NCBI RefSeq assembly: GCF_005116445.1 | Contig: NZ_SWBQ01000008.1 | Coordinates: 1 to 64,000 of the forward strand | DNA length: 64,000 nt | Direction: 5' to 3' | DNA from: Pedobacter frigoris | GTDB lineage: Bacteria; Bacteroidota; Bacteroidia; Sphingobacteriales; Sphingobacteriaceae | Part shown: positions 58,531-61,853 of the stretch, piece by piece | How the letters are laid out: every line of letters starts with the position of its first letter | How positions within the stretch are numbered: the first letter of the stretch is position 1 | Made by a program: the position numbers and the translations under genes | Notes under the pieces: generated by a model | What the model was told of the DNA's origin: nothing | Seen by the model: only the letters and a program-made list of their open reading frames with translations | Databases searched by the model: none

Positions 58531-59277
58531 TTACTTGTTGAGGAGGTTTTTTACCCGCTCACGGTTGGGTTTGGAAACCGGAATTTTGTAACCTTCTGTT
58601 AATAAGAGGGTACCGCCATCTTCTTTAAGCCAGCTCTTTACGAATGCTGGATTTACGAGGTGCGACTGGTGGCTGCGGATAAATCCATTCGGCTGCAGCA
58701 TGTCGGCATATTCTTTCAAAGGTTTGGAAACCATGATCTTTTCTCCTGAGGTCAGGAAGAAATTGGTGTAGGTATTGTCTGCTTCGCAGCGGATGATTTC
58801 GCTGACCTGTACATACCTGATTTCCTGAAGTTGGGGAAGCGCTATTTTGGGGGGAGCGCTATCCCCTTTTTTTATCAGGTTTAGCAGAAAGTCCAGTTGC
58901 TGGTTCTGTTTTTTTTCCCGGATCTTAAGCTCGGCTTTGCCGACCGCAGCAATCAGTTCATCTATGTCGACGGGTTTTAGGAGGTAATCCAGTGCGGCGA
59001 ATTTTACCGCCTGAATACCGTAGTGGTCATAAGCTGTTACAAATATGATTTCGAAGGATTTGTCGGGCAATAAATTAAGCAGATCAAAACCGGTATGTGT
59101 TCCCATTTGTATGTCGAGGAATAGCAGATCCGGCCGATGATTTTTAACAGAGATGGCGGCCAGTTCCACATCCTTTTCCACGGCGACAATCTCTACCTGA
59201 CTGCAATGTTTTTTTATCAGTGCGCTGAGGTTTTCGAGGTTTGCGGGTTCATCGTCTACTAAAATCGCTTTCATCAT
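58531..59277 (-). CDS. LytTR-family response regulator
   Basis: 248 residues. Receiver domain (1-120): acidic pocket DDEPANLE, phospho-Asp in LLFLDIQMGTHTGFDLL, switch Lys in DYLLKPVDIDEL. LytTR DNA-binding domain (about 145-245): VSEIIRCEADNTYTNFFLTSGEKIMVSKPLKEY and FIRSHQSHLVNPAFVKSW. Starts 2 nt after its kinase gene. Binds direct repeats; a candidate site lies at 60229-60252. Confidence 0.95.
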   Translation of the reverse strand: MMKAILVDDEPANLENLSALIKKHCSQVEIVAVEKDVELAAISVKNHRPDLLFLDIQMGTHTGFDLLNLLPDKSFEIIFVTAYDHYGIQAVKFAALDYLLKPVDIDELIAAVGKAELKIREKKQNQQLDFLLNLIKKGDSAPPKIALPQLQEIRYVQVSEIIRCEADNTYTNFFLTSGEKIMVSKPLKEYADMLQPNGFIRSHQSHLVNPAFVKSWLKEDGGTLLLTEGYKIPVSKPNRERVKNLLNK

Positions 59278-59278
59278 C

Positions 59279-60016
59279 TTACAGCCAGTTGGTTAAAGTA
59301 ATGACGACGGTTGTCCCCTCATTCCCACTATTGATATTCATCATCATCTTTGTGTGTTTATTGATAGAATTGAATAAAGCGATGCGGCTGCGCATGAGTT
59401 TTATGCCATGGCCTTCACTTTTACTGTTTGCCTTGAAACCATGCCCATTATCAAAGATGGCGAGGGTAAGGTCGTTGCCTTTGCTCGAAAATTTGATCAT
59501 GATATTTCCCGGTTCCTTTAAATTGGCAATTCCATGTTTCACGGCATTTTCTGCAAAAGGCTGGAGCAGCATCGACGGGATTTCAATATTCTCCGTATCC
59601 AGCGTATATTCCGCATCAATCTGGAAGGTAAACCCAAATCTCAACTGTTCCATCTGCAGGTAATCGTCCAGCAGGCGCATTTCTTCTGCTATGCTGATCT
59701 GTTCTTTTGCTTCCAGTACATTGCGGGTCAGACGTGCAAATTTTCCGAGATAACGGTTGGCATTGTCGATGTCGTTCTTGTTCATTAGGTTCTGGATGCC
59801 GGCAAGGGCATTGAACATGAAATGAGGATTGAGCTGTGACCTGACTGTGCTCAGCTTCATTTTTTCCACTTCTTTCTGTTGCTTTTCCCCAGTTGGAAAG
59901 ACTCTTTTGTAGAGAAACATGATGACCAAAGTTACTACTGTTATAACGACCATCATAAATACGAGTGAAATTATTATGAGAATAATCTCTTGTAAACCCA
60001 TCATTGCCAGAATCAT
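59279..60016 (-). CDS. LytS-type sensor histidine kinase
   Basis: 245 residues. A single N-terminal membrane helix (about 10-35) and no extracellular sensor domain. His_kinase domain with the phospho-His in LNPHFMFNALAGIQNLM, and HATPase with ENAVKHGI (N box), LAIFDNGHGF and GHGIKLMRSRI. The missing sensor suggests that signal input comes from a partner, for instance the 53-residue membrane peptide whose stop overlaps its ATG. Confidence 0.95.
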   Translation of the reverse strand: MILAMMGLQEIILIIISLVFMMVVITVVTLVIMFLYKRVFPTGEKQQKEVEKMKLSTVRSQLNPHFMFNALAGIQNLMNKNDIDNANRYLGKFARLTRNVLEAKEQISIAEEMRLLDDYLQMEQLRFGFTFQIDAEYTLDTENIEIPSMLLQPFAENAVKHGIANLKEPGNIMIKFSSKGNDLTLAIFDNGHGFKANSKSEGHGIKLMRSRIALFNSINKHTKMMMNINSGNEGTTVVITLTNWL

Positions 60017-60174
60017 CTAAAATCCTCCTTTTTAAAACCAGTGTTCTTTTTCATTAGGTAACGGATCAATAAAACCAATGCGGTTATGACCAGGATTAAA
60101 AATGTTCCTCCGATCGCCAGTATCATCAGTTCAGCAAGACCAAACATGGCTGCAATTTCGTTTTTTATCATCAT
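60013..60174 (-). CDS. 53-residue single-span membrane peptide, first gene of the LytTR operon
   Basis: ATG 60174 (or the next codon), TGA 60013-60015. Starts MMIKNEIAAMFGLAELMILA, then a hydrophobic run to about residue 38 (GGTFLILVITALVLLIRYLM) and a basic/acidic tail KKNTGFKKEDFR. The stop overlaps the kinase start as ATGA, and its last codons contain AAGGAGG, a perfect ribosome site for the kinase (rare here). I do not recognise the family. It is too short for the usual ORF length limit. Confidence 0.72.
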   Translation of the reverse strand: MMIKNEIAAMFGLAELMILAIGGTFLILVITALVLLIRYLMKKNTGFKKEDFR

Positions 60175-60194: not shown

Positions 60195-60202
60195 CAAAAC
60201 TA
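60195..60202 (-). promoter_or_regulatory. -7 promoter box of the LytTR operon
   Basis: Minus-strand TAGTTTTG, exact consensus, 20 nt before the small membrane peptide ATG. Confidence 0.5.
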
Positions 60203-60228: not shown

Positions 60229-60252
60229 CCAAACAGTAAAGTGACCAAACAG
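60229..60252. promoter_or_regulatory. Direct repeat CCAAACAG, candidate LytTR operator
   Basis: CCAAACAG occurs at 60229-60236 and 60245-60252 (16 bp apart). Read on the minus strand each is (T/A)CTGTTTGG, close to the LytTR half-site [TA][AC][CA]GTTN[AG][TG] except at position 3. The spacing is shorter than the usual 21-22 bp, so this is tentative. Confidence 0.35.
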
Positions 60253-60426
60253 ACCAGTATTTGCCGGAATTGAAAAAGTATTCAAAACCCGGCTGGTTCT
60301 TATCCATTTTTCACAGCGATGCCAACATGTTCTTCAGATCCTAAACTTTCTGCCAAAATAAGGAGAATTTCTCTGCCTGTATTCAACATCTGACAATAAA
60401 CACATCATTAAAAATTATAAAAATCT

Positions 60427-60455: not shown

Positions 60456-61853
60456 ATGAATTTTAGAATCGAACACGATACGATGGGTGAAGTACAGGTG
60501 CCTGCTGATAAATATTGGGGTGCTCAAACTGAACGTTCAAGAAATAACTTTAAAATAGGTCCGGAGGCTTCTATGCCAAAGGAAATCATACATGCATTTG
60601 GTTACCTGAAAAAGGCAGCAGCCCTGGCTAATACTGAGCTTGGTGTTTTATCTGCAGAAAAAGCAGAACTGATAGTTAAGGCCTGTGATGAAGTCATCGC
60701 GGGAAGTCTTGATGACCAGTTTCCATTGGTGATCTGGCAAACAGGTTCGGGTACTCAGAGTAATATGAACGGTAACGAAGTAATTGCCAATCGTGCTCAT
60801 GTTCTGAATGGCGGACAACTAAGTGATGATCAGAAAATCCTTCATCCAAACGATGATGTCAATAAATCACAATCTTCAAATGATACCTATCCGACTGCGA
60901 TGCACATCGCGGCATACAAACAAGCAGTAGAGGTTACGATTCCAGGATTAGAAAAGTTACGCAATACACTGCATGAAAAAGCGGTAGAATTCAAAGACAT
61001 TGTTAAAACAGGCCGTACCCATTTTATGGATGCTACACCTTTGACACTTGGACAGGAATTCTCCGGTTATGTTCAGCAAATAGACAATAGCGTCAGAGCA
61101 GTAAAAAATGCGCTGGTAATGATCAGCGAATTGGCACTGGGTGGTACAGCGGTAGGTACCGGACTGAATACCCCTAAGGGATATGATGTGTTGGTGGCAA
61201 AAAAGATAGCCGAACTGACAGGCCTTCCATTTGTGACTGCCCCGAATAAATTCGAAGCTTTAGCAGCACACGATGCCATGGTAGAACTTTCAGGAGCATA
61301 CAAGCGTACTGCTGTTTCGTTGATGAAGATCGCGAATGACGTGAGGATCCTGAGTTCAGGCCCACGTTGCGGTATCGGAGAGATCATCATTCCTGATAAT
61401 GAGCCGGGATCGTCAATTATGCCGGGTAAAGTGAATCCTACCCAACCGGAAGCTATGACTATGGTCTGTGCCCAGGTAATGGGTAATGATGTTACCGTGA
61501 GTATAGGCGGCAGCAATGGTCATTTTGAACTGAACGTATTTAAGCCGGTAATGGCAGCCAATGTATTGCAATCAGGCAGACTGATCGGTGATGCGTGTGT
61601 GTCCTTTAATGATAAATGTGCAGTAGGTATCCTGCCTAACCTGCCTGAGATTAAGAAACACCTGCAAAACTCACTGATGCTGGTTACAGCATTGAACCCG
61701 CATGTGGGTTATGAAAATGCAGCTAAGATTGCTAAGAAAGCTCATAAGGAAAATAAGACGCTGAAAGAAGCTTCTGTTGAACTTGGCTTGCTTACAGCAG
61801 AACAATTTGATGAGTGGGTTCGTCCTGAAGACATGGTAGGTAGTTTAAAGTAA
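60456..61853 (+). CDS. fumC: Fumarate hydratase class II
   Basis: Citric-acid-cycle enzyme, fumarate to malate; 465 residues, full length. [21 protein letters not shown] start, [60 protein letters not shown] with the catalytic His, and the signature [16 protein letters not shown] with the active-site Ser. Iron-independent class. The lipoprotein gene follows 20 nt later. Confidence 0.97.

Follow-up and report, generated by a model that had tools for sequence, protein, structure and literature searches.

A one-helix microprotein encoded before a sensor-less LytS-type kinase in Pedobacter frigoris, and a related peptide family beside membrane-anchored LytTR proteins

The window analysed here, a 64,000-nucleotide stretch of the Pedobacter frigoris genome (contig NZ_SWBQ01000008.1, positions 1 to 64,000), carries on its minus strand a run of three genes in the order microprotein, histidine kinase and receiver-LytTR regulator, with the fumarase gene fumC divergent from this operon and starting at 60456. 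The features of the locus are as follows:

60232..60282, minus strand: three operator-like direct repeats with a 21-bp period, AATACTTTT / AATACTGGT / TTTACTGTT
60195..60202, minus strand: promoter-like TAGTTTTG, which fits the -7 consensus TAnnTTTG
60013..60174, minus strand: microprotein ORF of 53 codons (53 aa), from the ATG at 60174 to the TGA at 60013
60024..60030, minus strand: AAGGAGG, within the last codons of the microprotein and 7 nt 5' of the kinase ATG
59279..60016, minus strand: LytS-type histidine kinase, 245 aa (Pfam PF06580, E = 2.7e-20)
58531..59277, minus strand: response regulator with receiver and LytTR domains (PF00072, E = 3.1e-19; PF04397, E = 1.3e-15)

An earlier note on this DNA had read the locus as a three-part sensing module, with the small ORF as candidate signal-input subunit of a sensor-less kinase. 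Its coordinates for the 53-codon ORF were right and the strand is minus; frame 1 of the plus strand is interrupted by stops across the same positions. The ORF is a real coding gene, with an in-frame codon log-ratio of +0.25 per codon; the five alternative frames give -1.32 to -0.03, and the in-frame score ranks second among the 104 window ORFs of 45-60 aa. The translation, MMIKNEIAAMFGLAELMILAIGGTFLILVITALVLLIRYLMKKNTGFKKEDFR, forms one hydrophobic helix (Kyte-Doolittle 19-residue maximum 2.81) with a GxxE motif (G12/E15) and a basic tail, and is without a signal peptide. Judged by eye with the positive-inside rule, the peptide would lie N-out/C-in, and on our reading of the sequence few of its residues are expected outside the membrane. 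No credible Pfam or NCBIfam family was found for it, and four matches to solved structures, of glycophorin A and ACE2 (E = 0.33-0.68), were taken as chance.

The single helix, the overlap with the kinase gene and the perfect AAGGAGG in the last codons, all claimed from the letters, were borne out. The microprotein TGA and the kinase ATG share ATGA at 60016-60013, and AAGGAGG occurs as a single copy on both strands of the whole window. AGGAG or GGAGG lies no more than 21 nt before the longest-ORF start in 4 of the 49 window ORFs of at least 150 aa. By a rough estimate from base composition alone, several copies of AAGGAGG would be allowed per 64 kb; Shine-Dalgarno-like sites in the window look avoided, and the one at the kinase start has good spacing.

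In the kinase, His_kinase (PF06580) is the only Pfam family above its cut-off, HATPase_c falling just below (E = 5e-5, 24.1 bits, cut-off 26.4). Together with a regulator that has receiver and LytTR domains, these two families give the composition of a LytS/LytR-type two-component system; the multi-helix LYT sensor domain of LytS proper has no Pfam match in the window kinase at E <= 1. An AlphaFold2 model places a single N-terminal helix at residues 2-39; the model is of low confidence (mean pLDDT 65, 6 sequences) and was used for this helix alone. A kinase with one helix and without a sensory domain, as the earlier note had it, agrees with these results. Sixteen of its 17 closest relatives in the genus are 529-604 aa long, and the other (genome G033) has 277 aa. 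Those long relatives that were read consist of a signal peptide, a periplasmic part of about 300 aa (no Pfam match in the two scanned), one helix and the kinase, such that the window kinase retains the helix alone, without the periplasmic part of nearly all of its closest relatives. The nearest syntenic relative, in genome G035, has the order fumC, a TlpA-like thioredoxin gene, a 588-aa kinase and the regulator, followed by the genes found downstream in the window.

Two further observations concern these relatives. The G033 kinase beside fumC (L066:6644-7477) has also lost its periplasmic domain and has a different hydrophobic N-terminus with two helices by eye, a second and different sensor loss at the fumC-adjacent kinase locus. 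In three genomes a TlpA-like thioredoxin gene stands directly 5' of the kinase, at L076:4695-6158 (identity supported by Pfam), L080:4664-6076 and L084:409-1854, and the operator described below is weakened before the first of these genes, exact before the second and has one mismatch before the third.

The microprotein and the kinase N-terminus are alike, a point absent from the earlier note, as is the LytTR-type operator before the operon. With an HMM built from 20 relatives and free of window sequences, the microprotein came out on top of the 605 window ORFs of at least 25 aa, at 33.3 bits and E = 1.1e-9; next was the kinase N-terminus, at 18.7 bits and E = 4.2e-5, and the third ORF had E = 0.82. 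Controls were drawn from 6800 ORFs of loci fetched because they matched a related profile, which makes them hard controls; PLDc_N proteins scored 23-30 bits and a TatA 20.4, and family members without a signal peptide 11-36 bits. Since the kinase helix scores below the TatA, the HMM score alone is not decisive for it, and these values, the PLDc_N proteins coming from other genera, imply that such a helix is common in Bacteroidota. Direct residue comparison is better evidence: 15 of 38 residues are identical between peptide and kinase helix (BLASTP E = 0.011), compared with a mean of 6.1 in residue shuffles, 0 of 20000 of which reached 15. The microprotein resembles a stand-alone copy of the N-terminal membrane helix of the kinase. 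Third codon positions agree at 32%, so that if the two are copies, they are old ones.

A general membrane protein of TatA-like or PLDc_N-like kind, placed in the operon by chance, would also begin its helix with GxxEI, as TatA and PLDc_N proteins do, and the peptide shares a GxPEII-like helix start with TatA, whose topology is N-out/C-in. The peptide nonetheless lacks the FGxKK hinge and the amphipathic helix of TatA and has no match to TatA_B_E (PF02416) or PLDc_N at E <= 1, whereas real TatA reaches 58 bits (PF02416 at 4.8e-16 in a genuine control) and PLDc_N proteins 25-33 bits. With an operator, a gene overlap and a partner of similar helix at the same locus, such a chance placement is very improbable. 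The age of the divergence also bears on the idea that the peptide is a fading relic of the rearrangement that placed the helix on the kinase, still made and without a present role. The searches gave no orthologous arrangement from which conservation of the one in the window could be judged, and the same genome has a truncated TlpA-like ORF behind like repeats; yet despite the old divergence the frame, G12, E15, the helix and the basic tail are intact and codon usage is good, and we regard this history as quite unlikely.

Relatives of the peptide were found elsewhere in the genus. A first search of 145 genomes with the window peptide gave weak matches, several of them in adjacent pairs, and in the DNA there a small ORF encoding a similar helix immediately precedes the gene of a protein, some 180-215 aa long, that combines the same helix with a LytTR domain and has no receiver. 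We call this protein TM-LytTR (membrane-anchored LytTR protein; PF04397 alone in the three scanned), the peptide directly before it micro I, and a second type of peptide micro II; the helices of micro I and TM-LytTR are likewise alike in aligned pairs. The family comprises Pedobacter single-helix peptides of 40-76 aa with the GxxE motif. Helix profile A6, which includes the window sequences and for which the window's own match is therefore circular, matched 31 of the 145 genomes at E <= 2e-7. They comprise 23 with a micro I and TM-LytTR pair, four with micro II only (G157, G021, G060, G005), two with TM-LytTR alone (G022, G124), one with a broken or cut copy (G025) and the window genome; G107 has both micro types. 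A TM-LytTR without a family peptide was also found in G078 (E = 5.7e-5). Most members have a signal-peptide-like N-terminus by eye; such an N-terminus is absent from the peptides of the window, G132 and G130.

An intact peptide is present in 28 genomes and a TM-LytTR in 26, and 23 genomes have the first directly before the second. The two genes overlap in 21 of the 23 pairs, by 11 nt in 17, and an internal ATG would give the 11-nt overlap in three further pairs. Ten of the 23 pairs lie next to a kinase and regulator; the other 13 do not. Database records gave 13 loci, all from Pedobacter; 12 of these records show the pair, and for the 13th (P. terrae) it is seen in G004. They come from the same genomes and are thus not independent evidence. 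In the window genome no TM-LytTR was found: apart from the microprotein and the kinase, the helix profile has a single match there, at E = 0.29. Among the candidates scored, no further locus with the peptide before a short kinase was found in the genus, so the window arrangement was seen in 1 of 145 genomes. At 1e-5, again among the candidates scored, a class search (395 genomes) matched the window genome only and a family search (399 genomes) gave 28 matches, 23 of them Pedobacter. Three of the five non-Pedobacter matches (frames of 80-106 aa) were looked at (G264, G340, G344) and rejected as PLDc_N proteins, an assignment that does not extend to G179 and G358. The literature searches made here gave no paper that describes this peptide family, and a search for LytTR with Pedobacter gave 0 papers.

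Micro II has no adjacent kinase, regulator or TM-LytTR in two genomes (G157, G005); such genes lie between fumC and a hisS-like gene at L062:7019-7201 and L171:6593-6823. Genome G060 has a further small ORF (L165:3238-3426) with a GTPEII helix start, a helix-profile E of 2.1e-5 and no Pfam match.

The amino-acid sequence of these relatives is under purifying selection. Pairwise Nei-Gojobori dN/dS, calculated with our own script for 15 of the 23 micro I and for four micro II genes, was 0.08-0.34 across 51 micro I pairs, compared inside each of two length classes, and 0.05-0.10 across 6 micro II pairs. The check on dN/dS proposed at the outset accordingly came out in favor of selection in relatives, at 0.05-0.34, and gives no value for the window peptide itself, which has no close orthologue. 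This selection also bears on the reading that the ORF acts mainly in cis, by coupling translation to the kinase start, with the peptide itself of little matter. The ATGA overlap, the sole AAGGAGG of 64 kb placed 7 nt before the kinase ATG, and the gene overlaps seen in 21 of 23 relatives would all suit a cis role. Against it, selection acts on the amino acids of the family, the window peptide keeps the G, the E and the basic tail, and Shine-Dalgarno-like sites are rare in the window (4/49); we regard a mainly cis function as unlikely.

Absence of the ORF upstream of orthologous kinases had been set beforehand as the result that would refute the proposal. Of the 17 closest kinases, 16 have visible DNA upstream, and none of these follows a family peptide; the upstream search covered 35 same-strand ORFs of at least 28 aa starting within 500 bp (best family-HMM E = 0.1), and the 17th kinase (G014) begins at a contig end. 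Taken literally this refutes the proposal; the gene is rescued, with a changed meaning, by conservation of its family at other loci of the same regulon. Microprotein, sensor-less kinase and LytTR regulator do stand together in one operon, and that part of the three-part module holds. The weaker part is the signal-input subunit, a peptide that would sense a membrane or periplasmic cue and activate the kinase. The window kinase is without the periplasmic part of its closest relatives, and the peptide is coding and co-encoded with it, both of which count in favor of such a subunit. However, the usual neighbor of the family is a LytTR protein (23 of 28) and not a kinase, which is adjacent in just 10 of the 23 pairs; this and the 0 of 16 closest kinases weaken the proposal, and a peptide with almost no part outside the membrane offers little structural basis for ligand binding. 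We consider a true signal-input role rather unlikely.

In eight genomes compared in register (loci L071, L070, L082, L073, L172, L173, L174, L083), the last 150 nt of the TM-LytTR gene and of the same-genome regulator gene are 83-98% identical, and in six of the eight this exceeds every between-species TM-LytTR value (74-89% overall); G089 ties the between-species maximum (89) and G011 is lower (83 vs 86). For the 150 nt before these, identity is 70-75% within genomes and 67-85% between species, leaving out G092 (43-50%), which is probably out of register. Other pairs gave 87% (G132), 72% (G078) and 74% (G124) for the last 150 nt; among the 13 pairs compared, of which G107 and G022 were out of register, raised identity was not seen in G078 and G124. 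These values suggest that, in some of the genus, the DNA-binding part has undergone gene conversion. Because gene conversion would keep DNA recognition the same, the anchored protein probably acts there on the regulator's own sites.

Candidate sites of this kind lie before the operons. Upstream of micro I (21 genomes aligned), three conserved direct repeats of the form AATNCT(C/A)A recur every 21 bp, beginning about 110, 89 and 68 bp before the start codon. In the window the first repeat is at -108 of the microprotein ATG and the third is TTTACTGTT; AATNCT-N15-AATNCT has a single exact match in these 64 kb, at 60282-60256 (minus strand). The Bacteroidota -7 consensus is TAnnTTTG, and at about the position of the window's promoter-like TAGTTTTG, a TTT box is found in kinase promoters and TACTTTCG in micro I promoters. 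In an alignment with kinase-operon promoters, the window promoter has in common with them a third repeat TTTACTNTT and the TTT box near the start, which places the microprotein first behind a kinase-operon promoter. In G035 the repeats are weakened (AATTCT/GATACC/TTTACT) at about -110.

The pattern was learnt from the micro I promoters themselves, of which 19 of 23 have the exact pair and 22 of 23 have it when one mismatch is allowed, G115 being without it. The exact pair was found in 12 of 26 kinase promoters (all seven kinases tested between SUI1 and hisS are among the 14 without it), 1 of 3 TlpA promoters (a second has one mismatch) and 2 of 3 TM-LytTR-only promoters. None of the 5 micro II genes has it, nor does any of the 430 other genes of at least 150 aa at these loci; 13 of the 430 have a one-mismatch form. 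Across the window genome the pattern occurs 38 times, compared with 37 for a reversed control; at this chance level the pattern alone finds no regulon and only its position counts, the chance of an exact match within 5 bp of the expected place being about 4.5e-5 (38 sites, 2 x 4.69 Mb, 11 positions). LytTR regulators are described as binding 9-bp direct repeats, mostly with a 12-bp spacer, and as acting on autoregulated operons (PMC6193735). We propose the Pedobacter repeats as a candidate LytTR operator. Their position in the window matches that in related operons of kinase and peptide, so control of the microprotein-kinase operon by the LytTR regulator is probable.

Thirty of the 38 genomic sites were fetched, and two lie at -106/-107 of an ORF, both on other contigs of the window genome. 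One ORF (L213:6020-6238) encodes a truncated TlpA-like protein of 72 aa, 55% identical to the TlpA-like protein of G035, with three repeats of the same kind at -107, and is likely a remnant of a second copy of the operon. The other (L214:3407-4288) encodes a 293-aa Cupin_8 protein with an intergenic exact pair at -106, and may be a target of the regulator or a chance match.

Tuning of kinases by small membrane proteins has been described in a few enteric cases. MgrB, a short membrane protein of the kinase's own regulon (PMC8404706), acts on PhoQ along the membrane helices of the kinase (PMC10576120). Like MgrB, and like SafA and UgtS, the Pedobacter peptide is a small membrane protein, here of a single helix. 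It differs in being encoded directly before its partner in the same operon, and it resembles the helix of that partner in sequence. We use MgrB-PhoQ as an analogy for a possible mode of action. A second comparison is with the LytTR regulatory systems (HdrRM, BrsRM and the Bacteroides LRS-like operons), the Bacteroides operons being described as having a membrane protein first and membrane segments on the LytTR protein (PMC6193735). Common to both are a LytTR regulator, a membrane protein in the same operon and upstream repeats with LytTR spacing; repeats of about 9 bp with a 12-bp spacer upstream of the promoter correspond to the 21-bp period at -108. In contrast to these systems, the membrane protein is a one-helix protein of 40-76 aa and not NfeD/DUF2154 or another larger one, and the set includes a kinase and a receiver-type regulator, with the helix on the kinase and the receiver on the LytTR protein in the window. 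A receiver-less regulator is found in the TM-LytTR of the relatives; the window regulator has a receiver, and we therefore do not claim LRS membership for it. Finally, the microProteins of plants and animals are described as small, single-domain proteins related to a larger multidomain partner (PMC7534434, PMC6003976). The Pedobacter peptide is likewise related in sequence to one part of a larger partner (15/38 identical), but the common part is a membrane helix, the setting is bacterial, and interference is proposed here by analogy.

Taken together, we favor, with a probability of roughly 0.45, the explanation that the peptide is a membrane-helix partner that tunes the kinase within an operon driven by the regulator, in a feedback loop; the pairing itself we infer from sequence likeness. 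Peptide and kinase would associate side by side in the membrane through their like helix, and the peptide would set how easily the kinase dimer switches, most likely holding the kinase down, although this direction is a guess. If the regulator drives the operon, the level of the peptide would close the loop. In the relatives, the peptide would do the same to TM-LytTR, which often has almost the same DNA-binding part as the regulator; the window lineage would have exchanged LytTR for a kinase as the output joined to the partner helix. Persistence of the pair in 13 of 23 genomes without an adjacent kinase and regulator counts in favor of this explanation. Several observations count against this explanation. 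The peptide before a kinase is a single case, such that no coevolution is measurable; the kinase helix scores below a TatA with the family HMM, its kind being common in Bacteroidota; micro II is alone in two genomes and TM-LytTR is without a family peptide in three; and the operator is absent from 14 of 26 kinase promoters and from 5 of 5 micro II genes.

A broader proposal, which we hold tentatively as possible, is that Pedobacter has a modular kit whose working pair is a microprotein and an effector with the same helix, and in which the cytoplasmic output of the effector is interchangeable, being a LytTR domain in most of the species with the kit and a histidine kinase in the window species. 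The locus offers a family in which peptide and partner have a like helix, the output of the partner varies with species and the DNA site is readable, which would make the pairing directly testable by helix swaps; it also leads to cases of membrane-anchored and free LytTR regulators that are seemingly kept alike by gene conversion. If true, the kit would carry the microProtein principle over to bacteria and to a membrane helix, within a LytTR feedback loop of its own.
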